From: an uncultured Ruminococcus sp. | Lineage (GTDB): Bacteria > Bacillota > Clostridia > Oscillospirales > Acutalibacteraceae | DNA length: 35,192 nucleotides | Assembly: GCA_902796225.1 (NCBI GenBank) | Contig: CADBOO010000087.1 | Span: forward strand, 1-35,192 | Reading direction: 5' to 3' | Shown here: piece after piece, positions 4,450 through 29,978 of the stretch | Position numbering within the stretch: the first letter of the stretch is position 1 | How the letters are laid out: every line of letters begins with the position of its first letter | Notes under the pieces: generated by a model | What the model was told of the DNA's origin: nothing | The model's database searches: none | What the model saw: the letters and a program-made list of their open reading frames with translations, nothing else | Position numbers and translations under genes: made by a program

Positions 4450-6492
4450 ATGAAACACGAATTGGTTTTGGAAGGGCTGAACTGCGCGCACTGTGCGGCA
4501 AAGATCGAGCAGAAGCTGATCGATACGCCGGACTACAGCGACGTCAGGTTCTCCTTCGCGACAAAAGAACTGTCGTTTAATTGCGAAAAAAGAAATATAA
4601 TCGAAGAAGTACAGATGCTGGTCGACAGCATCGAGGATGGCGTGACCGTCAGATCAGCCGATGACTGCGACGAGGAGAATGAAGAAAGCATCAGCAAGGT
4701 CAAGATCGTCCTGCTCATCCTCTCGGCAGGGCTGTTCGCCGCGGCATTTGTCCTGCATTTTTTTGAGGGCAACGATGTGATCTGCGCGATCCTGTCCGTG
4801 ATCTCGGCGATCCTCTCCGGATACGAGGTCGTATACGAAGGCGTCAAGTCAGCGATCAAGCTGCGGATCGATGAAACCACCCTCATGACGGTCGCGGTGA
4901 TCGCGGCGATGGTGCTGGGTGAATTCGTCGAGGCCGCCGCAGTCACCGTTCTGTTCGGGATCGGCGAACTGCTGGAGGATAAAGCGGTAGAAAAATCCCG
5001 CCGCGACATCCGCAAGCTCGCGGACATCCGTCCCGATACCGCCTATCTCGTCGACAATACAGGTTCGCGCGAAGTCCCCGCAAAGGACGTTGCAATCGGA
5101 TCGATCCTCGAGATCCCTCCCCATACCCGCGTTCCGCTGGACGGCGTCGTGACCGACGGCGCAACGACGGTCGACGCGTCGTCGCTGACAGGTGAATCCG
5201 CTCCCGTAGACGTCAGCGTCGGCTCGGAGCTGCTCAGCGGCATGATGAACAACGACCGCACCGTGCGGATGAAGGTCACAAAAGCCTATGCCGACAGCGC
5301 GGCGACACGCATCGTCAAGCTGGTCGAGGAAAGTGCGAAGAATAAGGGCGACCGCGAAAAACTGATCTCCCGCTTTGCGCGGATCTACACGCCCGTTGTG
5401 ATCCTGATCGGTGTGCTGATCGCCCTGATCCCGTCGCTTATCACCGGCGAATGGGCGACCTGGATCCACCGCGCTCTGGTATGTCTTGTCGCGTCGTGTC
5501 CATGCTCGATCGTCATCTCAGTTCCTCTCGCCTACTTTGCGGGCATCGGCGCAGCGTCAAAAGCCGGCGTGCTGATCAAGGGCGGCAGATATGTCGAGGC
5601 GTTATCAACAGCGACTTGCTTCGCGTTTGACAAAACCGGTACGCTCACAGACAATCATATTTCTGTTAAAGAAATAAAATCAGCCTCTGATTATTCTGTA
5701 GAAGAAATATTACGGATCGCCTATTCTGTCGAAGCGCATTCATCTCATCCTATTGCCGCCGCAATCAGAGAATATGCGGAGGCTCATCATATTTCCGAAT
5801 TAGAATTAAAAAACCACACCGAGATCTCCGGTAAGGGCGTATCGGCAGAGGACGACCGCCACACCTACGCTGTCACCAAATCCTCCGATCATCAGGCAAC
5901 GGCAGTCACTCTGGACGACAAGGTCATCGGTATGATCACGATCTCGGAACAGGCGCGCACCGAAGCAAAATCCGTTCTCAAAAAGCTGAAAGCGCTCGGG
6001 ATCGACAAGCTCGTCATGCTGTCGGGTGATAAACGCTCCGCGTGCGAAAAGGTCGCGGCAGAACTCGGCGTCACCGATATCCGCGCCGAGCTGCTCCCCG
6101 AGGACAAGGTCGCCTGTATTGAAGAACTGATCTCAGACCACGGCAACTGCTGTTTTGTCGGCGACGGCATCAACGACGCGCCGGTTCTCTCACGATCGGA
6201 CTGCGGTATCGCAATGGGACTCGGTTCGGATGCGGCGATCGAATCCGCCGATATGGTGCTGTCCGCAGAGAATCTCAACGCTCTGCCGAAAGCTGTCCGC
6301 GTCTGCCGAAGGACGATGCGCACCGTGCGCGGGAATATCATCTTCTCGCTGGCGGTCAAGGTATTGGTCATCACACTGGCGGCGCTCGGATTTGCTCCGT
6401 TATGGCTGGCTGTCGTCGCGGATACCGGCGTCTGCCTCTTATGCGTACTCAACTCGGTCAGACTGATCAAATCGAACGCCTCCCGGCAATAG
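4450..6492 (+). CDS. zntA: P1B-2-type heavy-metal (Zn/Cd/Pb) exporting ATPase
   Basis: A 680-aa membrane P-type ATPase that pumps divalent soft metals out of the cytoplasm. In order: one N-terminal HMA domain with NCAHC (C12, C15); transmembrane helices from about residue 85; TGES in the actuator domain; the CPC metal site C350-P-C352; phosphorylation motif DKTGTLT (D394); an HP pair (SSHPIA) in the nucleotide domain; and GDGINDAP. ADTG in the last membrane helix (VVADTGVCLLC) is the acidic residue typical of the Zn/Cd/Pb subgroup. GAGG lies 7 nt before the ATG. It follows the SmtB-type repressor and is probably cotranscribed with it. Codons around 5650-5820 are markedly more AT-rich than the rest of the gene. 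CadA is an equally valid name. Confidence 0.95.
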   Translation: MKHELVLEGLNCAHCAAKIEQKLIDTPDYSDVRFSFATKELSFNCEKRNIIEEVQMLVDSIEDGVTVRSADDCDEENEESISKVKIVLLILSAGLFAAAFVLHFFEGNDVICAILSVISAILSGYEVVYEGVKSAIKLRIDETTLMTVAVIAAMVLGEFVEAAAVTVLFGIGELLEDKAVEKSRRDIRKLADIRPDTAYLVDNTGSREVPAKDVAIGSILEIPPHTRVPLDGVVTDGATTVDASSLTGESAPVDVSVGSELLSGMMNNDRTVRMKVTKAYADSAATRIVKLVEESAKNKGDREKLISRFARIYTPVVILIGVLIALIPSLITGEWATWIHRALVCLVASCPCSIVISVPLAYFAGIGAASKAGVLIKGGRYVEALSTATCFAFDKTGTLTDNHISVKEIKSASDYSVEEILRIAYSVEAHSSHPIAAAIREYAEAHHISELELKNHTEISGKGVSAEDDRHTYAVTKSSDHQATAVTLDDKVIGMITISEQARTEAKSVLKKLKALGIDKLVMLSGDKRSACEKVAAELGVTDIRAELLPEDKVACIEELISDHGNCCFVGDGINDAPVLSRSDCGIAMGLGSDAAIESADMVLSAENLNALPKAVRVCRRTMRTVRGNIIFSLAVKVLVITLAALGFAPLWLAVVADTGVCLLCVLNSVRLIKSNASRQ

Positions 6493-6535
6493 CGAAAGCC
6501 TCAGCTTCCGCCGAAGACAGTTATAACGCAACTAA

Positions 6536-6570
6536 AAAACACGGCTGCTCTGAACGAACAGCCGTGTTTT
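6536..6570. terminator. Bidirectional terminator between zntA and the ABC permease gene
   Basis: A perfect 12-bp stem (6536-6547 with 6559-6570), AAAACACGGCTG and its complement, with an 11-nt loop. It has A-run and T-run ends, so it can stop transcription from both converging units. Confidence 0.88.
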
Positions 6571-6585
6571 GCTATGTACGGAGAA

Positions 6586-7335
6586 TTATTTCTCGCGCAT
6601 TCTTGATGTGAACAGTACGACCGCGAGGACGCACAGTACGACGCAATAGCCGAGCACGACCCAAATATGGCCCTCGGTGAAAATCCCGCTGTAGCTGCCG
6701 TGCAGAACCGCTTTCTGCATTTCTACCGCATGGTAGAACGGCAGGATCTGACCGACGGTCTTGAACGCGCCGCCGACCATATCAAGGCTGAACCATGCGC
6801 CCGACAGCCATGCGGTCAGGTTCGTGACCAGCGCGCCGCAGATCCCGCCGACCTGCTTCTCATTGAGCAGGGTTCCCAGCAATAAGCCGAGTGCGGCAAA
6901 CATGATCGCGGGCAGGATCGAGATCAGGATCGCGAGGAAGATATTCGCGGTGAACGACAGCCCGAGGATCATGGCGACCACATAGCAGATGATCCCCTGC
7001 ATCAGCGCGATCGGTATCAGCGGCAGCATATATCCGACGATATAATCGACCGCGGTCAGCGGGGTCGTCAACAGCCGCTGCAGCAGCGACGATCCTCTGT
7101 CCTTCGACAGCAGCAGACCTGCCATCAGGGTGAGGAACGACATTGCAAACACATTGACGCCGGGCGTCAGATTCTCGATTTTGAAATTCGACGGACCGTA
7201 ACCCTCCGGGATACCGCTGTTGATCGCAGATAAAAGGAGCAGCAGCGCAACCGGCATACCCAGTCCGAACGCAACGGTCAGCGGGTCAAGGATGATCTCC
7301 TTGGCAGTGCGTTTGGTAAATGTCAACCATCTCAT
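6586..7335 (-). CDS. ABC-2 type permease subunit
   Basis: A 249-aa protein with about six transmembrane segments, including the ABC-2 family core SKDRGSSLLQRLLTTPLTAVDYIVGYMLPL between helices 2 and 3. It forms the membrane pore of an efflux transporter with the ATPase encoded just upstream, whose stop overlaps its ATG by four bases (ATGA); an AGGAGGG site lies upstream. Last gene of a TetR-ATPase-permease operon, an arrangement typical of drug or toxic-compound exporters controlled by their own TetR. Substrate unknown. Its 3' end faces the zntA terminator. Confidence 0.9.
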   Translation of the reverse strand: MRWLTFTKRTAKEIILDPLTVAFGLGMPVALLLLLSAINSGIPEGYGPSNFKIENLTPGVNVFAMSFLTLMAGLLLSKDRGSSLLQRLLTTPLTAVDYIVGYMLPLIPIALMQGIICYVVAMILGLSFTANIFLAILISILPAIMFAALGLLLGTLLNEKQVGGICGALVTNLTAWLSGAWFSLDMVGGAFKTVGQILPFYHAVEMQKAVLHGSYSGIFTEGHIWVVLGYCVVLCVLAVVLFTSRMREK

Positions 7336-8060
7336 GAACGACCCTCCTTTACCAGCTTCACGAAGGCGGCTTCAAAATCATCAACGCCGGCTTCTTTCAT
7401 GATCTCTTTATCCGTGCCGACGGTGATCAGCTTGCCGTCCTTCATCACGGCAAGTCGATCGCACATCTCCTGCGCCTCTTCCAGATAATGGGTTGTCAGG
7501 ATGATAGTCAGCTCGCCTTTGATCGCCTTGATCGCATCCCACAGCTCGGCTCTGGCGATAACATCCAGACCGAGGGTAGGCTCATCGAGGAACAGAACGC
7601 TCGGCGAGTTGATCAGCGCCATCGCGATCGAGACCCTGCGTTTGTAGCCGCCGGAAAGCTTTTTGAGGCGTTTATCCATCACCTTACTCAGGCTCAGCGC
7701 GTTGCACAGTTCGGCGATCTTTTTTTCTGCGGCGTCCTTGTCCATACTGTAGATACCCGCCATCATTTTGAGGTTTTCACGCGCGGTGAGGTTTTCGGCA
7801 ACGGCTGTCTCCTGCGGAGAGATCGCGATCCTCTCGCGGATCTTCTGCTTATCGCCGAGAATGCTGAAGCCCGCGATCTCTGCGTCGCCCGAGGTGGGCG
7901 CGGTCAGGGTCGACAGCATTTTGATAGTGGTTGTTTTTCCGGCGCCGTTCACGCCGAGCAGTCCGAACAGCTCGCCCTTCTCGATCTCAAGGCTGAGCCC
8001 GTCGACTGCTGTGATATCTTTGTAGCGTTTTGTCAGTGACGACAGTTTGATCTCTGTCAT
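7332..8060 (-). CDS. ABC transporter ATP-binding protein (multidrug/Nod-factor type)
   Basis: A 242-aa ATPase subunit. Walker A is GVNGAGKTT, Q-loop ISPQET, signature LSGGYKRR, Walker B VLFLDEPTLGLD and the H-loop His is in TTHYLEEAQ. The sequence resembles the DrrA/NatA/CcmA class that energises ABC-2 exporters. It overlaps the TetR gene upstream and the permease gene downstream by four bases each (ATGA), giving a translationally coupled trio. An AGGAG site precedes the ATG. All catalytic motifs are intact. The exported compound cannot be predicted. Confidence 0.93.
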   Translation of the reverse strand: MTEIKLSSLTKRYKDITAVDGLSLEIEKGELFGLLGVNGAGKTTTIKMLSTLTAPTSGDAEIAGFSILGDKQKIRERIAISPQETAVAENLTARENLKMMAGIYSMDKDAAEKKIAELCNALSLSKVMDKRLKKLSGGYKRRVSIAMALINSPSVLFLDEPTLGLDVIARAELWDAIKAIKGELTIILTTHYLEEAQEMCDRLAVMKDGKLITVGTDKEIMKEAGVDDFEAAFVKLVKEGRS

Positions 8061-8632
8061 TCGACCACTCCTTCCTTATTCTGGAAACGACCGAGTATGC
8101 CCAGATATACATCCGACAGCATCTCGCTCGCTTCGTCTGCTTTGTATTCTTCAAAACCCGTCGCATACATGACGGCAAGTCCGTGTACCAGCACCCACAG
8201 CTCGGTATGGAGTCGATGCGCCTGCTCGTCCGACAGACCCGTACGTTCCCGGATCATGGCGACAATCATTTCGCTTTCGGCGGTATCGTCGATTCTTTCT
8301 TCACCGTTACGATCGCGCATAAACAGCATTTTAAACAGCTCCGGCTCATCGACCGCAAATTCGATATACGCCATACCGCTCGCCTTATAGGGCGGGTATC
8401 TGCAGGACTGCATCGACGAAAACGTCCGTTCGACATACAGCTGATACGCTTTATCCAGCACGCTCTTTTTGAGCGAATCCATATTCGGAAAATTGGAGAA
8501 GATCGGCTGGGTGGAACAGTTCAGCTTTTTTGCAACAGCGCGGGTCGTCAACCCGTCTGTCCCCTTTTCGCGCACCAGTTCGGTCGCCGCCGTGATGATA
8601 CTGTCACGGGTGATCTTGATCGCGGGAGGCAT
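8057..8632 (-). CDS. TetR/AcrR-family repressor of the ABC exporter operon
   Basis: A 191-aa protein. The N-terminal HTH spans residues about 7-53 (TRDSIITAATELVREKG, then LTTRAVAKKLNCSTQPIFSNFPNMDSL). The remainder is the helical ligand and dimerisation domain (TetR_C_13-like, by general pattern). It starts at an ATG with AGGAGGG upstream and is first in the operon. An 18-bp palindrome, ATATAACA-N2-TGTTATAT, overlaps its own -10 box and is the obvious operator, so the regulator should repress itself and the transporter until a ligand releases it. Confidence 0.92.
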   Translation of the reverse strand: MPPAIKITRDSIITAATELVREKGTDGLTTRAVAKKLNCSTQPIFSNFPNMDSLKKSVLDKAYQLYVERTFSSMQSCRYPPYKASGMAYIEFAVDEPELFKMLFMRDRNGEERIDDTAESEMIVAMIRERTGLSDEQAHRLHTELWVLVHGLAVMYATGFEEYKADEASEMLSDVYLGILGRFQNKEGVVE

Positions 8633-8646
8633 TTTGTCCCTCCTTT

Positions 8647-8664
8647 ATATAACATTTGTTATAT
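8647..8664. promoter_or_regulatory. TetR operator, ATATAACA-N2-TGTTATAT
   Basis: Perfect 8-bp arms separated by 2 bp, sharing two bases with the -10 box of the TetR-ABC promoter on the minus strand. Confidence 0.85.
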
Positions 8665-8691
8665 TATAAATCAAGAATACTAGTTTGTCAA
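8663..8691 (-). promoter_or_regulatory. Promoter of the TetR-ABC operon
   Basis: On the minus strand: -35 TTGACA (8686-8691), 17-nt spacer, perfect -10 TATAAT (8663-8668). Confidence 0.9.
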
Positions 8692-8706
8692 TACGAAATG
8701 CCGTTA

Positions 8707-8735
8707 TTGACACCGCTGCCGATTTGATTTACAAT
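8707..8735 (+). promoter_or_regulatory. Promoter of the O-antigen-ligase-like gene
   Basis: TTGACA (8707-8712), 17-nt spacer, TACAAT (8730-8735). It is divergent from the TetR promoter, with the two -35 boxes only 15 bp apart, so binding at one could affect the other. Confidence 0.85.
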
Positions 8736-8768
8736 AAACGCAGAATCATTCAATCAAAGGAACAAGCT

Positions 8769-10400
8769 ATGGCTAACAAGCAACACAGCAATCAAAAAAA
8801 CGAACAGTATCGGCCCAGCACCATGCCCGGCTTTCTGGTCAGCCTGTATCTGATATTGATGTTCAGCTTCTTTCCCCTCTTCCTCACACAGCAGTTCGTC
8901 AGTGCCCGCAGGGATAAATACTATTTTTATCTGGTGCTTTCCGGCGTGCTGATCGTATCGGTCGTGATCGTATCGCTGCTGGATTATTTTGAAGCAAAGC
9001 GGCATCACCAAGCCGATCTGCGACTCAAACCGATCACAGCTGCCGATATCTCGTTCTTATGCTTCTACGGCTTTGCGGCGATCTCGACGCTTCTCTCGAA
9101 GTATCCGGCAGAATCTTTCCTCGGCGTGTTTCCCAACGGCGGCAGAAATAACGGTCTGCTGCTGATGACCGTCTATCTGCTGGTTTATCTGGTCGTCACA
9201 CGGCGGTATTCTTTCAAAGAGTATGTGATCGCAATCTACCTGCTGTTCTCATCCTTTATCGCATTTCTCGCGATCGTCAACTTCTTCTACATCGATGTCA
9301 TCAACGTTTACAACGGATATATCGACCTGTGGAAGCAGTTTGACGGAACGCAGGGAAATGTTAATGTACTGCTCAATTTCGGCAGCACACTGGGCAATAA
9401 AAACCTGATCAGCGCTTTTATGTGCCTGTTCCTGCCGATCGCCGTGATGACCTTTGTGATCACGAAGACCCGCTATTTAAAGATCATCGGAGGCGTTGCG
9501 ATCTGCTTTGCCTACTGCGGACTTCTCTGCGCCGATTCCTCCTCGGGTATTCTGGGACTGGTCGTGATCATCGCGGTGATGGCGATCTTCTCTGCGCGCA
9601 GTTATTCCATGTGCAAATGGTATCTGCTGGCGCTGGCGATCATGTTCGCCTCCTCAAAGCTGCTGCGCCTGTTCTCCTATATCATGGGCGATATCAGCAA
9701 GGGATTTGAATTCATCCAGTCTTTTCTGATCTACAGCAATGCGATCTATATCCCGCTGATCGTCTGTGCGGCTCTGTTTGTGCTGCTGCAGCTGTTTGAG
9801 AAGAAACTGGCTCCGCATTATCCGAAAAAAGCGATCGTGATCACCCTGATCGTGCTGACTGTCGGCGGCGTCTGCGCAGCGATCTTTGCGTTCGTCTATT
9901 ACTCGTTCATCGCCCCCGAAGCCGAACTGAGCGAGGATCTGTCGGGACTGCTCCGCTTTGACGAAAGATGGGGTACCCACCGCGGATATTACTGGATCAA
10001 GAGCCTTGACGAATACAAAAAGTTCGATTTCCTGCACAAGCTGTTCGGCTATGGTCCCGACAGCGTCAGCGTCGTCATGGAACCGTATTACATCGATGAA
10101 CTGACAAAATTCAACGAATCCTCGACCGACTGTGTGCACAACGAATTCCTCAACTATTTCATCACACAGGGCGCGTTGGGACTGCTCAGCTATCTTGCGC
10201 TGCTCGGCACGGTGACCGTCCGCGCGATCCGCAGAGCAAAGGAAAACCCGGTGATCCTGATCTTCCTATCCGCAGTGATCTGCTGTGCCGTTCAATCGGT
10301 CGTTAACCTCTACCAGCCGATCACTACGCCGCTGTTCTTCCTCTTCCTCTCCCTCACCGAGGCACTGAATCGGCAAACGCCGCTGAAAACAAAAAAATGA
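8769..10400 (+). CDS. O-antigen ligase / polymerase (Wzy/WaaL-like) membrane protein
   Basis: A 543-aa polytopic protein with about a dozen hydrophobic segments. It has a large extracytoplasmic loop near residues 400-460 (RFDERWGTHRGYYWIKSLDEYKKFDFLHKLFGYGPDS) and the family's HNEFLNYFITQGALGLLSYLALL motif. This is the pattern of O-antigen ligase-like proteins that polymerise or transfer polysaccharide across the membrane. The start is the ATG at 8769, with AAAGGA about 7 nt upstream; the frame extends further to a TTG at 8685 but that reaches back across the promoter. It has no glycan-synthesis neighbours here, so the substrate (teichoic, capsular or protein glycan) is open. It stands alone between two hairpins and its own promoter. 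Confidence 0.85.
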   Translation: MANKQHSNQKNEQYRPSTMPGFLVSLYLILMFSFFPLFLTQQFVSARRDKYYFYLVLSGVLIVSVVIVSLLDYFEAKRHHQADLRLKPITAADISFLCFYGFAAISTLLSKYPAESFLGVFPNGGRNNGLLLMTVYLLVYLVVTRRYSFKEYVIAIYLLFSSFIAFLAIVNFFYIDVINVYNGYIDLWKQFDGTQGNVNVLLNFGSTLGNKNLISAFMCLFLPIAVMTFVITKTRYLKIIGGVAICFAYCGLLCADSSSGILGLVVIIAVMAIFSARSYSMCKWYLLALAIMFASSKLLRLFSYIMGDISKGFEFIQSFLIYSNAIYIPLIVCAALFVLLQLFEKKLAPHYPKKAIVITLIVLTVGGVCAAIFAFVYYSFIAPEAELSEDLSGLLRFDERWGTHRGYYWIKSLDEYKKFDFLHKLFGYGPDSVSVVMEPYYIDELTKFNESSTDCVHNEFLNYFITQGALGLLSYLALLGTVTVRAIRRAKENPVILIFLSAVICCAVQSVVNLYQPITTPLFFLFLSLTEALNRQTPLKTKK

Positions 10401-10411
10401 GTATAATGAAT

Positions 10412-10440
10412 CCCCATCTTATCACAACGATAGGATGGGG
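10412..10440. terminator. Terminator shared by the ligase gene and the alr-to-UPF0291 operon
   Basis: Stem CCCCATCTTATC (10412-10423) with GATAGGATGGGG (10429-10440), one mismatch, 5-nt loop. The T tail is weak on both sides. It lies between converging genes. Confidence 0.65.
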
Positions 10441-10485
10441 ATGATTCTTTATCGCACAATACAAGCACCTGAGCGCTGTATCGTT

Positions 10486-10719
10486 TCACTTCTTTTCGTT
10501 CTTTTTTCCGACTTCCATCGCTTCCTTCAGCGTGCGGACCGTTCCGTCGGGATAGCGGACGTCCATGTTGTCGAGCCGCTGTTTGAAACCCTGACGGAAA
10601 TTCTTCAAATAGATCGCATACAGCTCCTTCTGGCGCTTGGTTTCCGCTTCGGTCAAGCCTTTTTCTTTCTTCTTTTTCGCAAGAGCGTTGATCTCCTCAA
10701 GCATTTTGTCTGTATTCAT
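10486..10719 (-). CDS. UPF0291/DUF896 small protein (YnzC-like)
   Basis: A 77-aa protein from the chosen start. The pattern INALAKKKKEKGLTEAETKRQKELYAIYLKNFR is the hallmark of the DUF896 helical-hairpin family, seen beside SOS genes in Bacillus; its function is unknown. Two starts are possible: ATG at 10728, forming an ATGA overlap with ruvX but directly abutting the AAAGG site, or ATG at 10719, with AAAGG 9 nt upstream. I chose the second because the first leaves no spacing. It is the last gene of the long minus-strand operon that begins at alr. Confidence 0.85.
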   Translation of the reverse strand: MNTDKMLEEINALAKKKKEKGLTEAETKRQKELYAIYLKNFRQGFKQRLDNMDVRYPDGTVRTLKEAMEVGKKNEKK

Positions 10720-10724
10720 ATTCT

Positions 10725-11138
10725 TCATCCTTTCTGACTGTCCAAATAATCCTGCAGGATGATCGAAGCCGCTACGGCGTCTACCTGCTTTTTGCGTTTT
10801 TTGCCGTAAACCTCTTTCGCACTGAGGTAGGCATGGGCGGTGATAGTGGTGCCGCGTTCATCCTGCATCTTGTAAGGGACGCCGCTGAGCGCGCTGATCT
10901 TTTCGGCAAGCTCTCTGGCGCGAATCGCGCTTTCGCCCTCGGTGCCGTCCATATTCTTCGGCAGTCCGACGACGACCAGCTCCGCCTTGTTTTCTTTGAT
11001 TTGATCGGCGATCTTCTGCACCAGCCGTTCATCGTTATACTCTTCGATCACGCACAAAGACGATGCGAGAAAACCGCTTTTGTCCGAGATCGCAAGACCG
11101 GTTCTTGCGTGACCGAGGTCGACAGAAATAATGATCAT
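10725..11138 (-). CDS. ruvX: Putative pre-16S rRNA nuclease / Holliday-junction resolvase YqgF
   Basis: A 137-aa RNase H-fold protein. VDLGHARTGLA contains the first catalytic Asp (D7); VGLPKNMDGTEG and DERGTT (E94) follow; VDAVAASIILQDYL (D120) ends the active site. YqgF is essential in many bacteria and is needed for 5' processing of 16S rRNA; resolvase activity was the earlier proposal. The length is standard. It is 10 nt after the transglutaminase-like gene in the same operon. Confidence 0.95.
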   Translation of the reverse strand: MIIISVDLGHARTGLAISDKSGFLASSLCVIEEYNDERLVQKIADQIKENKAELVVVGLPKNMDGTEGESAIRARELAEKISALSGVPYKMQDERGTTITAHAYLSAKEVYGKKRKKQVDAVAASIILQDYLDSQKG

Positions 11139-11148
11139 AATACCCTTC

Positions 11149-12513
11149 CTAATAGTAATTCAGCATCACGGTGACCGCGCTGCGTTCCTTATTCTGATAA
11201 TAGCTCATGTTGCTGTTATCGATCTCATATCCGCTGATCCAACCGTTGACGTCCTCGACATAAGTGAAAAAGTACTGGGGCGAATCAACGAACAGCGCAT
11301 CGATCGCATCATCATAATCCAGCGCATCCGGATCGATATAAACGGTGATGTATTCCTTTTGATCCAGCGCCGCGCGATACAGAGAATCCTCCACGTCGGC
11401 GCCGTCATAATCCGTCAGATGCGCACACTCAAAGCGGTAATACGAATAATACGTCGCACTGCACTCCGGCAGATAGATATTCATCGCCACCGCGCTGAAA
11501 GTGGAATCGCCGTCGATCTCATCGTCGCTCAGCTGTGAAACGAGCTTCGAATTCGTATGATCTGCGCTCATCGTCGCTTCATCCAGATTGAAATACTGGT
11601 ACCGGCGGTAATCATACAGCTGATCATCCCAGGTCGGATCCACATAGTACCAGCCGTCGTCCAGACTGACCGCGTTCCACATATGCAGATCATTGGTACC
11701 GTCGCTGTCATAGCCGATCCCGGTGACGCCGATACAGTCGACGCCCAGACCGCACAACAGCAGCTGCATCGTTCTTGCATACCCCTCGCAGACCGCCTTG
11801 CCCTTCACCAGCGCGCCGTAAACGAGATACGCCTCGGGGACTCTTTGGTCGGTACTGTGCGACTGCGCGGCTTCTTTGTCATACTCACAGATCTCCGCGA
11901 TATAATCATGCACGGTTTTCTCGCGAGCATAAGCCGACAGATCCGCATCCACGCCTTCATAAAACGTATTGACGGCGGTATTGATCTCTGACTGCATGGA
12001 TTTTATTTCTTCAGGAGAATAAATAGACCGCATCTGTACGGCGGTATACTCCTTATTCTCATCGACAAGCTGATACAGCGTACCCGAAAGCCAAAACAGA
12101 TCGGGGTTATCGTCATACAGCGCCTTTGAGGCGATGCGGATATCCGCAGTCGACAGCACATATCCCTCAACCACCGCCTGACGGGTCTTATACAGCTTCT
12201 CGTTATTATCGTCGGTCTCGGGATAAACGTCGCGCACCTTTTCGGCAAGCGCGTCATACAGCGCCTTCTGACCATCGCTGAGCTGCGCGTAGGAATGGCG
12301 CGGATGGACAGGCGTGTAATAAGAGGAGTAGGTATACTCACCCGCACTGACGCTGACATATTCCCGGTCGTTATCCTCCGGGATCCCGTGCGTCGCCCCG
12401 GTATCGGGCGAAAGATGCATCTTCAGTCTGTCGATCCATTCGCACGAGGTCATAACAGCAGTCGTCATCAGCAGGATCAACAGCAGAGCGATTATTCTGA
12501 ATAATCGGTTCAT
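11149..12513 (-). CDS. Lipoprotein with transglutaminase-like domain
   Basis: A 454-aa protein. A short positively charged N-terminus and hydrophobic stretch end in VMTSC, a fair lipobox, so C24 would be lipid-modified and the protein held at the outer face of the membrane. The C-terminal half has the transglutaminase-like core: KAVCEGYARTMQLLL (C242), LHMWNAVSLDDGWYYVDPTWDD (H277, D292), a complete Cys-His-Asp triad. Such domains usually hydrolyse or crosslink peptide/protein amides at the cell surface. The start is the ATG at 12513 with AAGAGG upstream; a GTG two codons earlier overlaps that site. It is embedded 9 nt after tsaD in an otherwise cytosolic housekeeping operon. Confidence 0.85.
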   Translation of the reverse strand: MNRLFRIIALLLILLMTTAVMTSCEWIDRLKMHLSPDTGATHGIPEDNDREYVSVSAGEYTYSSYYTPVHPRHSYAQLSDGQKALYDALAEKVRDVYPETDDNNEKLYKTRQAVVEGYVLSTADIRIASKALYDDNPDLFWLSGTLYQLVDENKEYTAVQMRSIYSPEEIKSMQSEINTAVNTFYEGVDADLSAYAREKTVHDYIAEICEYDKEAAQSHSTDQRVPEAYLVYGALVKGKAVCEGYARTMQLLLCGLGVDCIGVTGIGYDSDGTNDLHMWNAVSLDDGWYYVDPTWDDQLYDYRRYQYFNLDEATMSADHTNSKLVSQLSDDEIDGDSTFSAVAMNIYLPECSATYYSYYRFECAHLTDYDGADVEDSLYRAALDQKEYITVYIDPDALDYDDAIDALFVDSPQYFFTYVEDVNGWISGYEIDNSNMSYYQNKERSAVTVMLNYY

Positions 12514-12522
12514 GTGCACCTC

Positions 12523-13536
12523 TTAAAACCAGTTTTCGCTGATGGGCAGGGTCGCGACGGCATTGAGGTCGGACTTTGCGAGATGACCCGCAAGATACTC
12601 GTAATATGCCTGAGCGCCGACCATCGCGCCGTTATCGCCGCAAAGCGATCGCTCCGGCATATACAGGTTGTATCTGCCCTCACAGCGCAGCTGCAATTCG
12701 CGGCGCAGCAGAGAATTCGCCGATACGCCGCCCGCGATCACAAGGGTCGTATATCCCAGATCCTGTGCCGCAAGCAGAAAATTGTCGGCAAGGCAATTCA
12801 CAACAGCTCTGCGATAGGACGCGCACATATCCGGAACGCTGATATCCCCGCTCTTTTGCTGTGTATTGTGGATCAGATTGATCACCGCTGTCTTCAGCCC
12901 CGAGAACGAAAAGTCGTAGGGCGAGCCGTCCACCTTCGGACGAGGCATGGGATACGCGTTTTCGTTGCCTGATTCGGCGATCTTATCCAGCTCCACGCCG
13001 CCGGGATACGGGATCCCCATTGCACGCGCGGCTTTATCAAAGGCTTCGCCCGCCGCATCGTCGCGGGTGCGACCGATAACCTTCAGATCGGTATAATCGC
13101 GCACCTCAACGATATGGCTGTGACCGCCGGATACGACCAGACATAAAAACGGCGGTTTTAATTCTTTGTGAGAAATATAATCAGACGCGATATGCGCGCG
13201 CAGATGATGCACGGGGATCAGCGGCTTCTTTGACGCCAGCGCAAAGCCCTTTGCAAAGTTCACACCTACGAGCAGAGCGCCGATCAGTCCCGGTGCATAG
13301 GTCACCGCGACGGCGTCGATATCATCAAGCGTACAGCCGGCAGTGCGGACGGCCTCATCCACAACGCCGACGATCGCCTCCGCATGACGGCGGGAAGCGA
13401 TCTCCGGAACAACGCCGCCGTAGAGCTTGTGTTCCTCTACCTGTGAGGCAACGATATTTGACAGGACTGTTCTGCCGTCCTCCACCACAGCCGCTGCAGT
13501 TTCGTCACAGCTGCTCTCTATCGCCAAGATTTTCAT
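12523..13536 (-). CDS. tsaD: tRNA N6-adenosine threonylcarbamoyltransferase
   Basis: A 337-aa protein of the Kae1/TsaD family. It transfers threonylcarbamoyl from threonylcarbamoyl-AMP to A37 of tRNAs that read ANN codons, with TsaB and TsaE as partners, which are not encoded in this window. It starts with the family hallmark ILAIESSCDETAAAVVEDG, shows the metal-binding HxxxH (HHLRAHIAS), VSGGHSHIVEV, and AGGVSANSLLR near the C-terminus. Its ATG overlaps the rimI stop by four bases. The central residue of HLRAH differs from the Glu seen in some homologues, but the two histidines are kept. Confidence 0.97.
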   Translation of the reverse strand: MKILAIESSCDETAAAVVEDGRTVLSNIVASQVEEHKLYGGVVPEIASRRHAEAIVGVVDEAVRTAGCTLDDIDAVAVTYAPGLIGALLVGVNFAKGFALASKKPLIPVHHLRAHIASDYISHKELKPPFLCLVVSGGHSHIVEVRDYTDLKVIGRTRDDAAGEAFDKAARAMGIPYPGGVELDKIAESGNENAYPMPRPKVDGSPYDFSFSGLKTAVINLIHNTQQKSGDISVPDMCASYRRAVVNCLADNFLLAAQDLGYTTLVIAGGVSANSLLRRELQLRCEGRYNLYMPERSLCGDNGAMVGAQAYYEYLAGHLAKSDLNAVATLPISENWF

Positions 13537-13970
13537 TCATATACCTTCTTTATCATGATCACCGCATCCTCGCGCGGAGCATCATAGTAATTCTTCCGGA
13601 CCGTGACCGGCACAAAGTCAAACGCCTCATATAAAGCGATCGCGCCGGTATTGGACGCACGCACCTCAAGGCAGATGGTTTTCACTCCGCTGCACGAGGA
13701 CAGCATCAGCTCGACGAGCTTTTTTCCGACGCCCTTGCGGCGGTACTCCGGACTGACCGCCAGTTCAACGATACTGCCTTCATCGGCGATCGCCTCAAAC
13801 GCGATATACCCGACGACCTTTTCTTCATCCACCGCAACAGCGCAGTAAGAATCGGCCTTATCCAGCTGAGAAGCAATACTCTGTTCGCTCCAGGCGCTCT
13901 CTCCGAAACAGCCGTCCAGCAATTCCTTGACACCCGCGATATGCCCGGGCTGCATTTTTTGCAGGATCAT
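13533..13970 (-). CDS. rimI: GNAT acetyltransferase, RimI-type
   Basis: A 145-aa protein. The acetyl-CoA pyrophosphate-binding loop is LAVSPEYRRKGVGKKLVELML, preceded by VGYIAFEAIADEGSIVELAV, and followed by the RimI-like NTGAIALYEAFDFVPVTVRKNYY. RimI acetylates the N-terminal Ala of ribosomal protein S18 and sits beside tsa genes in many Firmicutes. The start is the ATG at 13970, which overlaps the phosphatase stop by four bases (ATGA). A longer in-frame version running into the phosphatase gene is unlikely. It overlaps tsaD at its 3' end by four bases. Confidence 0.9.
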   Translation of the reverse strand: MILQKMQPGHIAGVKELLDGCFGESAWSEQSIASQLDKADSYCAVAVDEEKVVGYIAFEAIADEGSIVELAVSPEYRRKGVGKKLVELMLSSCSGVKTICLEVRASNTGAIALYEAFDFVPVTVRKNYYDAPREDAVIMIKKVYE

Positions 13971-14422
13971 AGCGTCGTGATCAGCAGCTTGACCGCGCCG
14001 ATGATCTCGTCGCGGCATTTGCGGTAAGCGTTCAGATCGCCGCCGTAGGGATCGACGATGCCCTGCCTGAGGTCATAGATATCGTCTACATTCGGTGCGC
14101 GACGCAGCAGGCGCAGCATGTTTTCGGGGATACCGATCGAGCGCAGGATCTCATAATGCTCGTCGTTCAGCGCGACGAACAGGCTGTATTGATTGAGGTC
14201 GATCCCGGGCAGAAAGCGCGTGCGGTGGGTACTCAGATCAAGCCCGATCTCCGCCACGGCTTTGACGGCGTTTTCCGATGCAGGTCTGTCGCCTATCGCG
14301 GCAACGCCTGCGGATTCGGCAACATAATCCAGCCCGCTTTGCGCAGCGAGCGAATTAAAGATCACCGCCGCCATCGGACTGCGGCAGGTGTTTCCTGTAC
14401 AAACAAATAATATCTTTTTCAT
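13967..14422 (-). CDS. ywlE: Low-molecular-weight phosphatase, YwlE-like (protein-arginine phosphatase)
   Basis: A 151-aa protein of the LMW-PTP family. The P-loop is CTGNTCRS with nucleophile C8 and R14, and the general acid is in VDPYGG (D124). The Thr in CTGNTCRS (T12) corresponds to the residue that gives Bacillus YwlE preference for phospho-arginine over phospho-tyrosine; tyrosine phosphatases have Ile there. YwlE reverses McsB arginine phosphorylation that tags proteins for ClpCP. No mcsB is in the window. It lies 9 nt after polA and overlaps rimI. The arginine-phosphatase call is by residue analogy. Confidence 0.87.
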   Translation of the reverse strand: MKKILFVCTGNTCRSPMAAVIFNSLAAQSGLDYVAESAGVAAIGDRPASENAVKAVAEIGLDLSTHRTRFLPGIDLNQYSLFVALNDEHYEILRSIGIPENMLRLLRRAPNVDDIYDLRQGIVDPYGGDLNAYRKCRDEIIGAVKLLITTL

Positions 14423-14431
14423 TGGTTCAAC

Positions 14432-16981
14432 CTAGCCTTTCGCATCATACCATGTCTCTCCCATCGCAGCTTCGGCAGTGAGCGGGACACTGAGGTGAAC
14501 GGCGTTCTCCATTTCTTCCTGCAGGATCATCGCGACCTGCATCATCTCGTAGGCGGGCGCTTCGACGATCAGTTCATCGTGCACCTGCAGGATCAGACGC
14601 GCGGATAATCCCTCTTTTGTCAGTCGTTTGTCCACATTCACCATCGCGATCTTGATGATATCCGCCGCTGTGCCCTGGATCGGGGCGTTGCGTGCGACGC
14701 GTTCACCGAAGGCGCGGGTGTTGCGGTTGGACGCCGACAGCTCCGGCAGATACCTGCGTCTGCCCTCGAGCGTCTCTACATATCCGTCGATCTTCGCCTT
14801 CTCGATGACCTCTTTCATATAGCGGTCGATCGCATGGAAATGCGCCAGGTAGGATTCAATATACTTCTGTGCCTCGCGCATACTGACGCCGATGTCCTTG
14901 GACAGCGAGAAAGCTCCGATGCCGTAGACGATGCCGAAGTTGACCGCCTTGGCGCGTGAACGCATCAGCGGCGTGACCTGATCGATCGGCACCTTGAACA
15001 CCTCGGACGCGGTAACGGTGTGGATGTCGATATTGTCGCGGAACGCCTGTTGCATATTTTCGTCGCCGGAGATATGCGCCAGCACTCTTAATTCTATCTG
15101 AGAATAATCCGCATCAACCAGCACACAGCCTTCCTTTGCACGGAAAAAGCGTCTGAACTCCCTGCCGCGTTCGGTGCGGACGGGAATGTTCTGCAGATTC
15201 GGCTCGGTCGAGCTGATGCGCCCGGTACGGGTCTCGGTCTGGTTGAAAGACGAATGGATACGTCCGTCGGCAGCGACCTTGTCGATCAGCGAATCGCAGT
15301 AGGTGGATTTCAGTTTTGCCACGGTACGGTACTCGAGGATCTTCGCGATCACGGGATGGAACCCGATCAGGCTTTCCAGCACCTCGGCGTTCGTAGAATA
15401 ACCGCTCTTCGTCTTTTTGCGCGGCGGCAGGTTCAGCTCCTCAAACAGTGCGGACGCCAGCTGCTTGGGCGAGTTGATATTGAACTCGTAGCCGACGTCG
15501 TCATAAATGGACTGCTGCAGCTCCTTGACCTCTTTGTCGAGCTGTTCGCCGTAGTCGCGGATCCCCTCGACATTGACGGCAAAGCCGATGTTTTCCATAC
15601 GCGCCAGCACCCTTGCAAGCGGGATCTCGATCTCGTAGAGTAATCTGTCCGCGCCGATACCGTGGATATCGTCGGCAAGACGCTTGCACAGCGCGGGCAT
15701 CGCGTGGTAAAAGGCGCACGCTTCATCCGCGTCATCTGCGCATTTCGCAACCGGGATATTGTAGCCGGCACACAGGCGGTCGAGATCGTAGCCGGAGGAT
15801 GACGGATTGAGCAGATACGCCGCAAGACTCGTGTCAAAAACAATATCGCAGTCGACGCCCTCTTTGTCGCAGTAAGCAAAGATCGGCTTGGCATTATCGG
15901 TATAGATCTTCTTGCCCGACGTCAGGATCGTTTTGATCGCGTTTTCACCGTCGATCGTATATAATAATTCTTCTGTAGAAATATATGCTTTATTCTCTGC
16001 AAAATCGATATGCAGATACAGCTCTTGAATAGTATCCATCACCGCTTTCAAATGCGCGTTATCAAGCGATTCGATCCGGAAAACACGTTTTTCTTCGTGC
16101 TTCACCTCTGCGGTTTCGGTCAGATCAAGTCCGAATTTTTCGATCAGCTTGAACAGCTCCAGCCGCGCCATCAGCCTTGCGGCGGCAGTCTTATCGCCCT
16201 CGCCGATCGAGTAGGAGGAAAGGTCGGTATCCACAGGAGCGCTCAGGCAGATCTCGCCCAGCTTGCGGCTGAGGAAGGCGCTGTCCTTCGATTGTTCCAG
16301 CTTTGCGCGCATACCGGGTTTGATATCCAGCTCGTCGAGGTGATCATAGATATAGTCGATGTCGCCGTACTTTCGGATCAGCTCGGTAGCGCCCTTGGGT
16401 CCGATGCCCGCAACACCGGGAATGTTGTCGGAGCTGTCGCCCTGGATCGCCTTGATCTCGATCAGCTTTTTCGGCGGCACGCCGTATTCCTCTTCAACAA
16501 CGGCAGGCGTATACATCATCGTGCCGTTGAGGTTCTTTGCCAGCCGCACGGATACACGGTCGCTCACCAGCTGCAGGCTGTCGCGGTCGCCGGTCGCAAT
16601 CACACAGGTGTTGCCGGAATTGGCGCATGCCTTCGACAGCGTACCGAGGATATCGTCCGCCTCGTATCCCTCGCAGGTGACGATCCGATACCCCAGATCC
16701 GTCAGCAGCTCCTTGAGCGGCGCCATCTGCTGATGCAGCTCCTCGGGCATTCCCTTGCGGTTCGCTTTGTATAAATCGTACATTTTATGACGGAAAGTCT
16801 TTGCTTTCAGATCGAACGCGATCGCCACCGCGTCGGGACTGACGTCCGCCTTCATGCGCTCGAACATGGTCAAAAAGCCGTAGATCGCGTTAGTAAACTG
16901 ACCGTCTTTGGTCGTCAGCGGCTTAATGCCGTAGAACGCGCGGTTAAGTATGCTGTTTCCGTCAACTACTAATAGAATCAT
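14432..16981 (-). CDS. polA: DNA polymerase I
   Basis: An 849-aa family A polymerase. The N-terminal 5'-3' exonuclease spans about residues 1-270 (VDGNSILNRAFYG, YEADDILGTLS, GDSSDNIPGVAGIGPKGA). A middle domain of about residues 290-460 lacks the DxE and other acidic residues of the 3'-5' proofreading site, so editing is presumably absent, as in many Gram-positive PolA. The polymerase domain has motif A DADYSQIELR (about residue 620), motif B RSRAKAVNFGIVYG (about 670) and motif C QVHDELIVEAP (about 795). Spacing to alr is 19 nt and to the phosphatase gene 9 nt. Two AT-rich codon islands inside the gene (15092-15104, 15968-15980) are discussed as a finding. Confidence 0.98.
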   Translation of the reverse strand: MILLVVDGNSILNRAFYGIKPLTTKDGQFTNAIYGFLTMFERMKADVSPDAVAIAFDLKAKTFRHKMYDLYKANRKGMPEELHQQMAPLKELLTDLGYRIVTCEGYEADDILGTLSKACANSGNTCVIATGDRDSLQLVSDRVSVRLAKNLNGTMMYTPAVVEEEYGVPPKKLIEIKAIQGDSSDNIPGVAGIGPKGATELIRKYGDIDYIYDHLDELDIKPGMRAKLEQSKDSAFLSRKLGEICLSAPVDTDLSSYSIGEGDKTAAARLMARLELFKLIEKFGLDLTETAEVKHEEKRVFRIESLDNAHLKAVMDTIQELYLHIDFAENKAYISTEELLYTIDGENAIKTILTSGKKIYTDNAKPIFAYCDKEGVDCDIVFDTSLAAYLLNPSSSGYDLDRLCAGYNIPVAKCADDADEACAFYHAMPALCKRLADDIHGIGADRLLYEIEIPLARVLARMENIGFAVNVEGIRDYGEQLDKEVKELQQSIYDDVGYEFNINSPKQLASALFEELNLPPRKKTKSGYSTNAEVLESLIGFHPVIAKILEYRTVAKLKSTYCDSLIDKVAADGRIHSSFNQTETRTGRISSTEPNLQNIPVRTERGREFRRFFRAKEGCVLVDADYSQIELRVLAHISGDENMQQAFRDNIDIHTVTASEVFKVPIDQVTPLMRSRAKAVNFGIVYGIGAFSLSKDIGVSMREAQKYIESYLAHFHAIDRYMKEVIEKAKIDGYVETLEGRRRYLPELSASNRNTRAFGERVARNAPIQGTAADIIKIAMVNVDKRLTKEGLSARLILQVHDELIVEAPAYEMMQVAMILQEEMENAVHLSVPLTAEAAMGETWYDAKG

Positions 16982-17000
16982 AATCAGCCTTTCCCTGTCA

Positions 17001-18218
17001 TCAAAGCTTATATACCACGCTGCCGGTGATCCAATTGGTGCGGTACAGCCGCGGAACGCGTTTGCTCACCGCGCACAGCACCTCGTAAGAAATGGTATCG
17101 CCCCAGCGGGCAACATCCTCTGCAGTCGGCTCGCCGTCATTACCGTTGCCGAAGACAACGACCACATTGCCGATCTCCGCCTCGGGAAAATCGGTGACGT
17201 CCAGCATCGTCTGATCCATGCAGATCCTGCCGATGATCTTACAGTTTTTGCCGAATTTTTTGGTCTTGTCCCAGACGAACATATAGCCATCCTTCGCGTA
17301 TGCACGAATAAACCCGTCTGCATAGCCGACAGGAACCGTCGCGATCCGCATATCGCGGTCTGCCGTAAACGTTCTGCCGTAACTGACGGTCGCGCCGGCT
17401 TTGACTGTCTTGATATGCGAGATCAGTGTTTTCAGACGCATCGCAGGATGCAGATGCAGATCGGAAACAATCTTATCACTCGGCGCATAGCCGTACAAAA
17501 TGATCCCCGCGCGTACCATATCAAGCCGCAGCGCCGGATAGTCCATGATCGCGCCGGAATTGGAACAATGACGGATCTCAAATCGAACGCCGCGCTTTTC
17601 GAGTTCATCGACGGTGTGGATAAAGCAACCGTACTGTTGATTTGTGAAGGCTTCACCGTCCGTGCCGTCATCGGCGACCGCAAAATGAGTAAATATGCCT
17701 TCCGTCACCAGATGCGGCAGACTGCACGCTTCTTTTATTTCTTCTATAGAATTATTATCACGCGGGAATTCCTGACAAATGAACCCGATACGGCTCATGC
17801 CTGTGTCCAGCTTGATGTGTATCCTGACTTCCACGGCGGATTTTTCGCATTCTTCACTGAGCCTGCGGGCATAATCGAGGCTGTAGACCGCCTGTCGGAT
17901 CGCGCCGTGCGCCAGATCTCTGCACCTGTCGGGCGGTGTATAGCCGAGGATCAGGATCGGCTCTTCGATACCTGCGTCACGGATTTCCAAAGCCTCGTCC
18001 AAATTGGAAACCGCAAAAAAATCCGCGCCCAGCTTATGATACAAGCGGCACAGCTCGACCGCGCCGTGACCGTAAGCATCCGCTTTGACGACACAGCACA
18101 GCTTGACGTGATCGCCGATCGTTTCTCTGATCGCCCGATAATTCGCCTCAACTGAATTCATATTGATCTCCGCCCACAGACGGCGGGTAAAAATCAAAGT
18201 ATCTTCTCTGTTTTGCAT
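17001..18218 (-). CDS. alr: Alanine racemase
   Basis: A 405-aa PLP enzyme that interconverts L- and D-alanine for peptidoglycan. The PLP lysine is in VVKADAYGHGA (K45). The second catalytic Tyr is in VSYGRTFTADRDMRIATVPVGYADGF, and GRICMDQTMLDV is the family's third motif. The start is ambiguous: ATG at 18218 has GGTGA about 5 nt upstream, while ATG at 18230 and TTG at 18239 extend the protein by four and seven residues with no clear ribosome site. First gene of an eight-gene operon with its own promoter at 18254-18282. Confidence 0.96.
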   Translation of the reverse strand: MQNREDTLIFTRRLWAEINMNSVEANYRAIRETIGDHVKLCCVVKADAYGHGAVELCRLYHKLGADFFAVSNLDEALEIRDAGIEEPILILGYTPPDRCRDLAHGAIRQAVYSLDYARRLSEECEKSAVEVRIHIKLDTGMSRIGFICQEFPRDNNSIEEIKEACSLPHLVTEGIFTHFAVADDGTDGEAFTNQQYGCFIHTVDELEKRGVRFEIRHCSNSGAIMDYPALRLDMVRAGIILYGYAPSDKIVSDLHLHPAMRLKTLISHIKTVKAGATVSYGRTFTADRDMRIATVPVGYADGFIRAYAKDGYMFVWDKTKKFGKNCKIIGRICMDQTMLDVTDFPEAEIGNVVVVFGNGNDGEPTAEDVARWGDTISYEVLCAVSKRVPRLYRTNWITGSVVYKL

Positions 18219-18253
18219 CGCTATCACCATATTTCGCAAATTACTCTATGATA

Positions 18254-18282
18254 ATTATAGTACAAACCCTGTCCTTTTACAA
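18254..18282 (-). promoter_or_regulatory. Promoter of the alr-polA-...-UPF0291 operon
   Basis: On the minus strand: -35 TTGTAA (18277-18282), 17-nt spacer, perfect -10 TATAAT (18254-18259). No other convincing promoter was seen before the operon's end at 10486, though internal ones cannot be excluded. Confidence 0.75.
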
Positions 18283-18333
18283 TAATATAGAAGAAATTTA
18301 ACAAAATCATATGATATTTTCCGCTATCTCCCA

Positions 18334-18362
18334 TTGACAAAGAGTAGAACGAAGTATAGAAT
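18334..18362 (+). promoter_or_regulatory. Promoter of the tetR gene at 18403
   Basis: TTGACA (18334-18339), 17-nt spacer, TAGAAT (18357-18362). It is divergent from the alr promoter, about 50 bp away. Confidence 0.82.
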
Positions 18363-18402
18363 ATAGACAGAATCATCATTATTTCAACAGGATGTGACTC
18401 GT

Positions 18403-19020
18403 ATGAAAAGAGCAAACAGCCCGACAAAAAGTAAGATTGTATCTGCTGCTTGGAAGTTATTTTATGAAAACGGTTTTGAGAATACCACAGTAGACGAAAT
18501 AGTAGAATTATCCGGTACATCAAAAGGATCCTTCTATCACTACTTCGAAAGCAAGGACAGCCTTGTCGGATCTCTCGCCTATCTCTTTGATGAAAAGTAT
18601 CAGGCGTTGGAAAAAGAGATCGAGTTCCGCCAGAGCGCCCTTGACACCATGCTGTATCTGACCAAGGAGCTTTGTCTGATGATCGAGAACAACATCGACA
18701 TCGATCTGCTGTCCCGGCTGTATGCCCAACAGCTGACAAAGCGCGGCAAAAAAGAACTGCTCGACCAGAATCGCGACTACTATCGCCTGCTCAAAAAGAT
18801 CGTACAGAAGGGACAGGAAAGCGGCGAGATCACCCGCGACAAATCCGCAGCGGAGATCGTCAGATTGTATGCGATCGCAGAGCGCGCGCTGCTGTATGAC
18901 TGGTGTCTGCACGGCGGTGAATATTCTTTGACAGAATATTCACAGACATTTATGCCTATGTTCCTCAGCAATCTCAAGCGCGTCAAAGACAAGCAAAACT
19001 CATACCTCTCCCAGTATTAA
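18403..19020 (+). CDS. TetR/AcrR-family regulator
   Basis: A 205-aa protein. The HTH spans residues about 11-55 (KSKIVSAAWKLFYENGFENTTVDEIVELSGTSKGSFYHYFESKDSL), a textbook TetR N-terminus. The C-terminal helical domain has no recognised ligand signature. The start is taken as ATG at 18403; a GTG at 18394 is possible but too near the AGGA site. It lies upstream of, and in the same direction as, the PutP-type symporter, with a terminator between, so it may or may not control it. The first 130 bp and the last 100 bp are AT-rich. A perfect 10-bp inverted repeat lies inside the C-terminal coding part. Confidence 0.9.
   Translation: MKRANSPTKSKIVSAAWKLFYENGFENTTVDEIVELSGTSKGSFYHYFESKDSLVGSLAYLFDEKYQALEKEIEFRQSALDTMLYLTKELCLMIENNIDIDLLSRLYAQQLTKRGKKELLDQNRDYYRLLKKIVQKGQESGEITRDKSAAEIVRLYAIAERALLYDWCLHGGEYSLTEYSQTFMPMFLSNLKRVKDKQNSYLSQY
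18917..18943. repeat. Perfect 10-bp inverted repeat inside tetR
   Basis: GTGAATATTC (18917-18926), 7-nt spacer, GAATATTCAC (18934-18943). It is the longest example of the intragenic TTCT-N5-AGAA pattern and encodes EYSLTEYS. Confidence 0.75.
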
Positions 19021-29928: not shown

Positions 29929-29978
29929 AATTGTGTATGTACGACATTTTGCGGGGGATTCCGCGGGAAAGGAAGAGT

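Follow-up and report, generated by a model that had tools for sequence, protein, structure and literature searches.

A genus-specific 25-bp palindrome in an uncultured Ruminococcus sp. as a candidate chromosome-position motif

Motifs that mark domains of the chromosome are known in few bacteria. In Escherichia coli the 13-bp palindrome matS, together with MatP, marks the terminus domain. PMC4726725 describes 24-52 palindromic SlmA-binding sites (SBS) in E. coli, unevenly distributed and involved in division coupling, and ∼70 palindromic Noc-binding sites (NBS) spread unevenly over the Bacillus subtilis chromosome, and both kinds of site avoid the terminus. RefZ-binding motifs (RBM), as characterised in PMC6657595, are nearly palindromic, lie on both chromosome arms of Bacillus at origin-referenced positions conserved through the genus, and mark sporulation boundaries. 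GATC, a site of Dam-methylating gammaproteobacteria, is over-represented when judged against coding flexibility and peaks symmetrically on both replichores in E. coli (PMC4786541). Here we analyze a 35,192-nt contig stretch of an uncultured Ruminococcus sp. (the window; contig CADBOO010000087.1), in which a sequence-only reading had noticed recurrent intragenic copies of TTCT-N5-AGAA. We find this motif to be the core of a 25-bp palindrome, TTATWWTTCT-N5-AGAAWWATAA, that has a fixed spacing, is restricted to one genus, is retained at some intragenic sites by synonymous codon choice and shows no link to gene orientation. On the single-contig chromosome of one relative the palindrome clusters in mirror fashion midway along both arms, and it thins out around the origin in two further genomes. 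We put at about two in three the probability that it is a genus-specific chromosome-position motif that would work like NBS, SBS, matS or RBM sites.

The palindrome resembles NBS in having a comparable copy number and a similar half-site, and a Noc-like gene is present in the genus; however, the TTC-GAA spacing is 4 in NBS and 7 here, the core also differs, and NBS are under-represented at the terminus whereas here thinning is clearest at the origin. With RBM it shares a palindromic motif on both arms and an origin-referenced placement, but there are five RBM sites with a sporulation role, as against tens of copies per genome here, many of them intragenic. SBS differ in being under-represented at the terminus, and their sequence is not known to be related to this palindrome. 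matS is likewise a palindrome marking a chromosome domain, although that domain is the terminus rather than the mid-arm and the sequence is another one. GATC differs in being a four-base methylation site that is far commoner and peaks about one third of the way toward the terminus. Elements of this kind are already known, but this sequence and its arrangement midway along the arms appear to be new; a literature search for the exact motif found no publication.

From the own genome (i.e. the assembly holding the window) we took 40 stretches according to contig number, including three on the long contig C30; with the window added, the sample came to 481 kb. This sample contained 48 core matches, 24 of them outside called genes, and a logo of these 24 showed wings that extend the core to the full palindrome; the conserved element is longer than the TTCT-N5-AGAA first noticed. 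Across the whole own genome the strict pattern TWWTTCTNNNNNAGAAWWA occurs 73 times against once for the reversed pattern, used as control, and when every 6-base gapped palindrome was ranked across a larger set of own sequence (744 kb) the element came first. A position weight matrix (PWM) trained on 55 strict own-genome sites, seven of them from the window, found 139 sites scoring at least 12 bits in the own stretches, compared with 4.3 in block shuffles (mean of 3); the training sites came from the same sequence. Because 19 of the 20 stretches in the site-targeted set were selected for holding sites, the totals built on these 139 sites, here and in the genic and intergenic tally below, are enriched; the unbiased density, taken from the 40 contig-number stretches alone, is 55 sites of at least 14 bits in 446 kb, which scales to ∼270 scored copies per genome alongside ∼70 strict ones.

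The spacing between the half-sites is fixed. Among TAWTTC-Nx-GAAWTA pairs with x from 0 to 15, 33 of 35 in the own sequence have x = 7, as do 23 of 50 in G220, an AT-rich relative of the same genus assembled as one contig of 2.44 Mb. A biased repair tract, one of the explanations offered with the original observation, is disfavored because of this fixed spacing. Helical periodicity of neighboring sites is not claimed: a period of 10 gave p ∼0.003 in the own sample, as the uncorrected best of three periods tried, and was absent in G220; peak zones used in that test were drawn after seeing the data. As a separate observation, strong inverted repeats are scattered through the G220 stretches L128-L202 (CCACCC-N4-GGGTGG, for example, has 76 copies in 1.5 Mb); they resemble a family of interspersed hairpins distinct from the palindrome.

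In the window, the eight strict core copies that had been listed were all found where they had been placed, with none elsewhere, including to the right of 18.94 kb, and all eight are intragenic in the single phase T TCT nnn nnA GAA. The chance expectation of less than one copy also held, since dinucleotide shuffles gave a mean of 0.45 and a maximum of 4, with 0 of 100 reaching eight. Synonymous codon shuffling within genes, applied to 31 window genes (one of them, 34070-34434, in the wrong frame), gave on average 0.16 copies of that phase, or 0.66 when the phases are pooled; the largest total was 5, and 0 of 3000 shuffles reached eight in all phases together. The codons involved are indeed rare in the window, where TCT makes up 10% of Ser, ATA 5% of Ile and TTA 4% of Leu codons. 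The copies had been assigned to both strands; because TTCT-N5-AGAA is its own reverse complement, strand merely mirrors the orientation of the host gene and the statement carries nothing further. Seven of the strict copies score 24.7-32.2 bits against the PWM, and the tetR copy, with poor wings, 14.3 bits. Of two proposed near copies, the one at 5793-5805 stands (24.4 bits; core TTCCGAATTAGAA; full extent 5787..5811, in the zntA-type gene) and the one at 9209-9221 does not (-6.8 bits). The window is a local hot spot, with 7 of the 73 strict genome copies where 1.2 would be expected.

The palindrome is confined to the genus. All 99 other genomes of the genus carry strict copies, 6-69 each with controls of 0-4, whereas 146 genomes from other genera of the order have 0-8 copies, mostly near their own controls. 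One of the latter, G166, has 7 copies with a control of 0, and among the matches listed the higher counts are largely TTTTTCT..AGAAAAA repeats. Among named records, those nearest the window belong to uncultured Ruminococcus sp. and Clostridia, some with goat, reindeer or roe deer in the title.

We examined retention of the core in 21 close loci, scoring it where the Ser and Glu of the encoded S..E were conserved; codon usage predicts fewer than 0.1 retained cores at each tested site. The alr copy (17733..17757, core 17739-17751; 32.2 bits) is kept in 18 of 21 relatives against 0.09 expected, and the polA copy in the linker that separates the exonuclease part from the polymerase part (15962..15986, core 15968-15980; 31.3 bits) in 16 of 19. 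In the zntA-type ATPase gene the first copy (5655..5679, core 5661-5673; 31.2 bits), with the codons CAT ATT TCT GTT AAA GAA ATA AAA, is kept in 11 of 13, and the second, 33 bp further on (5688..5712, core 5694-5706; 30.0 bits), in 5 of 8, with 14 homologues seen. The tsaD core (13156..13180, core 13162-13174; 31.2 bits) is strict in 5 of 14; the other nine relatives have TCA (eight) or TCC (one), with the remaining codons still AT-rich. Three copies are largely unkept: that in the TetR-family gene (18918..18942, core 18924-18936) is found in 3 of 16 relatives, that at polA motif A (15086..15110, core 15092-15104; 24.7 bits) in 1 of 20, and that in the transglutaminase-core lipoprotein gene (12001..12025, core 12007-12019; 27.8 bits) in 0 of 12, which makes the last lineage-specific among the relatives seen. 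Synonymous conservation, the test proposed with the original observation, is seen at alr, the polA linker and zntA and not at the lipoprotein gene, and the motif A and tetR sites have mostly turned over; relatives thus retain the rare codons at some sites. The claim that any effect must be synonymous is borne out. Two further observations concern these genes. In the relative L079 the polA linker has four core copies (10941, 10975, 11017 and 11047) within ∼120 bp and in two codon phases, and at L087:13954 a core-bearing tsaD-like stretch lies outside the called genes, so this tsaD may be frameshifted or miscalled.

The motif A copy shows how a site can arise. Nineteen relatives use mostly GC-ending codons here, while the own genome and L071 both read GAT TAT TCT CAR ATA GAA TTA AGA. 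Compared with L072, the eight codons at motif A show a greater net AT-ward synonymous shift than any other stretch of polA (rank 1 of 841 windows), and compared with L073 they tie for the largest of 840; relative to L071, where the site is also present, they show no such shift. The uneven retention and this shift together indicate that sites turn over and that the motif A copy was gained via several synonymous changes.

The distribution along the chromosome was clearest in G220, where dnaA lies at 1.015 Mb (a second, weaker DnaA-domain match is at 35 kb) and the GC skew changes direction near 1.02 and 2.22 Mb, so that the two arms are about equal. By fifths from origin to terminus, the 59 strict sites fall as 3, 2, 9, 17 and 2 on the left arm and 0, 0, 8, 14 and 4 on the right, with 5.9 expected in each, the last fifths included. 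The distribution departs from uniform (Kolmogorov-Smirnov p 1.7e-8), the median distance from dnaA is 749 kb on the left and 798 kb on the right (peak ∼0.75-0.80 Mb), and the best mirror axis among those placed every 20 kb, 1.02 Mb, matches both dnaA and the skew turn. The peak zones have a GC content like that of most of the remaining chromosome. A ScpB-like gene (1,804,524-1,805,153, in L173; named from its translation) was noted a few kb from the densest G220 cluster (1,812,516-1,814,828).

Thinning around the origin recurred in two other genomes. In G023, a genus relative in 15 contigs whose origin was placed by means of the noc/parB locus, dnaA not having been located, one of the 52 sites falls on the 374-kb contig with that locus, where 11.2 would be expected, and contig 6 holds 31 (16.5 expected); 50 of the 52 positions were listed individually, and the remaining two were put on the last contig by list order. 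In the own sample, placed by mapping onto G220, there were 6 sites in 103 kb at less than 430 kb from the origin and 19 sites in 93 kb at 550-1000 kb. The thinning has p 0.005 with L125 and 0.026 without it, L125 having first been omitted without reason; the test left out the window and the site-chosen stretches and kept L016 despite its scattered anchors. Thus an over-represented palindrome with a non-uniform, origin-referenced distribution, as in a chromosome-domain motif, was found in G220, G023 and the own sample.

The window itself was mapped by searching 18 of its genes in the 61% of G220 covered by protein searches. The genes zntA, polA, nrdD, nrdG, tsaD, rimI and ptp have their best matches within the left-arm zone, at 187-317 kb, which fits the window being a hot spot. 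The first window gene has an 87% match at 1.49 Mb, and ruvX, the lipoprotein gene and the second tetR had no match in the searched 61%.

The shared phase and peptide type of the eight window copies could suggest a codon or peptide effect, i.e. helix-start S-x-x-E written in slow codons, and the sequence-only reading had stressed the helix-capping box. We find the box to be a by-product of phase: the consensus holds a TAA stop in phase 0, ends in TAA in phase 2 (that of the window, where genes substitute AAA, TTA and others for the terminal TAA) and is stop-free in phase 1, and phase 2 happens to spell S-x-x-E. Genic sites are divided between phases 2, 1 and 0 as 45, 14 and 7 in the own stretches and 97, 36 and 13 in G220, and in phase 1 polA of relatives spells K-I-L-S-E-N. 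Of the 139 scored sites 66 lie in genes and 73 between them, although genes were called with a simple codon-score script, which may have mislabeled some sites as "intergenic" or phase-0. Programmed slow translation at helix starts is unsupported, because phase-1 copies occur and 73 of the 139 sites are extragenic. The window has no more than a mild excess of S-x-x-E (49 against 39), and TCT followed by GAA at a distance of three occurs only 44 times against 30 expected in the 481 kb including the window, a mild excess on which a general peptide or codon rule was rejected; we therefore regard such an effect as highly improbable. An RNA hairpin acting in transcripts is scarcely credible: a stem of 10 bp closed by a loop of 5 bases could form from the consensus and genic sites show some excess of paired wings, but placement is independent of transcription direction, and at 45 intergenic core sites wing pairing matches independence (22 against 23.1, 18 against 19.7 and 36 against 36.6). 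This lack of pair covariation at intergenic sites indicates a DNA site rather than a peptide or RNA signal.

As a DNA site, the palindrome could be the operator of a global transcription factor, with the intragenic copies as weak or decoy sites. It has the typical operator shape of a gapped palindrome with AT-rich wings, some clusters precede genes, as do three sites immediately ahead of an integrase-family gene in L021, and intergenic DNA, 13% of the sample, holds 73 of the 139 sites; it is because of this higher intergenic density that we keep the operator reading as a rival. However, the upstream concentration expected of an operator set was not found among the 139 sites, of which 66 are genic, while the 60 intergenic sites with both neighbors called occur in every orientation (++ 12, +- 14, -+ 19, -- 15; the 14 being convergent). 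In addition, intragenic sites are conserved in relatives and density tracks distance from the origin in G220, and we consider operators unlikely. The original observation had also suggested a nucleoid- or uptake-type DNA site, and of these the nucleoid type is favored. That molecular drive spread the palindrome as a DNA uptake or self-recognition sequence would agree with the genic and intergenic copies, the reading-frame preference and the genus restriction, but known uptake sequences have a thousand or more copies per genome, well above the ∼70 strict or 270 scored copies here, and the uneven, origin-referenced distribution in G220 disfavors this reading further, leaving it very unlikely.

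The chromosome-position reading accommodates these results as follows. The palindrome would be a dimer-type site read as double-stranded DNA by a putative protein of the genus; its placement would follow chromosome position more than gene, dense in mid-arm zones and sparse around the origin, and intragenic copies would be kept and gained through synonymous substitution. The bound protein may use the sites to mark or organize the mid-arm chromosome. Since the copies gather midway on both arms of one chromosome, they resemble landmarks for an organizing or segregating protein, and ∼70-270 sites that are origin-referenced and largely indifferent to orientation fit a chromosome-scale role. The simplest analogy would be with nucleoid-occlusion or domain-organizing systems in which division or segregation is tied to the progress of replication, and mid-arm marking of the nucleoid might serve division control, segregation or domain folding.

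Several results weigh against the chromosome-position reading. The two-arm map rests on one chromosome, G220, and its symmetry could partly stem from past inversions about the origin-terminus axis; in the 6-base gapped-palindrome scan of G220 the element fell outside the top 25, where dispersed repeats lead. Only 18 of the 40 unbiased own stretches could be placed on G220, 22 being without an anchor gene, and beyond 1000 kb these held 10 sites in 49 kb, as dense as mid-arm, so the terminus thinning was not reproduced in the own sample. For the window gene alr, the G220 match reaches no more than 39% and lies at 1.29 Mb. The turnover of the lipoprotein, motif A and tetR sites counts on the same side, as does the intergenic density (13% of the DNA yet 53% of the sites), which a regulator would produce likewise. 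The 49 genic core sites have some excess of paired wing bases, most at -3 (35 against 25.7), which may reflect codon constraint. Finally, no reader protein was identified among the DNA-binding-type genes beside clusters.

Within the chromosome-position reading, we considered the Noc-like ParB paralogue of the genus as a candidate reader that would bind the palindrome instead of the classical Noc site. All six genus genomes searched have a Noc-like gene, among them the own genome (C20:23515-24309) and G220, where it lies between rsmG and parA (L189:2920-3765, i.e. 1,022,920-1,023,765); the G220 protein matches TIGR04285 with E 8e-91 and 303.9 bits, below the 315-bit cut-off, and ParB_N and HTH_ParB above cut-off. 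What makes the paralogue appealing is that the classical Noc core TTTCCCGGGAAA has no copy in the own genome or in 1.5 Mb of G220 and that the half-sites are alike (AWTTCT here and ATTTCC in the Noc site), though those of the palindrome lie 3 bp further apart. In 4 of 9 same-family genomes of other genera there are 7-11 classical copies, and 5 of the 6 genus proteins have K for S at the contact position after GK. On the other hand, the other five same-family genomes have only 0-2 classical copies, the Noc specificity positions reported in PMC7383237 are largely retained in the genus proteins, G005 lacks the S-to-K change yet has 42 motif copies, and the six genus noc loci contain no site of at least 14 bits. 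The sister genus g13 has the same helix, yet 4 motif copies against a control of 1 and no classical core, and because the specificity residues are shared with this motif-poor sister genus we hold the Noc-like reader to be doubtful. Near parB there is one site each in G023 and G009 and none in the other four genus loci, while the noc locus of the sister G153 has two PWM hits.

Other genes beside dense clusters were also inspected. Five dense-cluster own stretches contain murD-, ftsK-, cell-wall-hydrolase- and secDF-like genes (named from translations). The DNA-binding types include, in L006, an 83-aa HTH_31-like protein (below the Pfam cut-off) adjoining two sites and, in L021, a GntR-family and a phage-integrase-family protein. 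Within the searched 61% of G220 these three genes had no close site-bearing counterpart: the HTH_31-like and GntR-family proteins had no match, and the integrase-family protein had a 61% identical match near the terminus without sites and three weaker matches, one with a site nearby. The window has two TetR-family genes, the second with homologues in 18 of 21 near loci.

Two further features of the window were noted. The adjacent proteins at 28195-29793 and 29931-32633 each consist of repeat units followed by a similar C-terminal part and look like a tandem duplication. Against a base-composition null, most of the strongest spaced palindromes in the window are GATC-Nx-GATC with x = 2, 5, 8, 11, 14, 17 and 20, a series that probably reflects codon periodicity in its ATC-rich genes.

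Taken furthest, the chromosome-position reading would describe a new chromosome-address system, with mirror mid-arm palindromes placed also in essential genes such as polA and a putative reader that senses replication or segregation passing the mid-arm, a proposal for which we see about equal grounds for and against. The motif sequence offers a direct handle for fishing out the reader protein. If the proposal is true, mirror mid-arm peaks kept by synonymous codon choice would represent a new layout, and coding sequence, even that of polA motif A, would be molded by a chromosome-scale DNA code.

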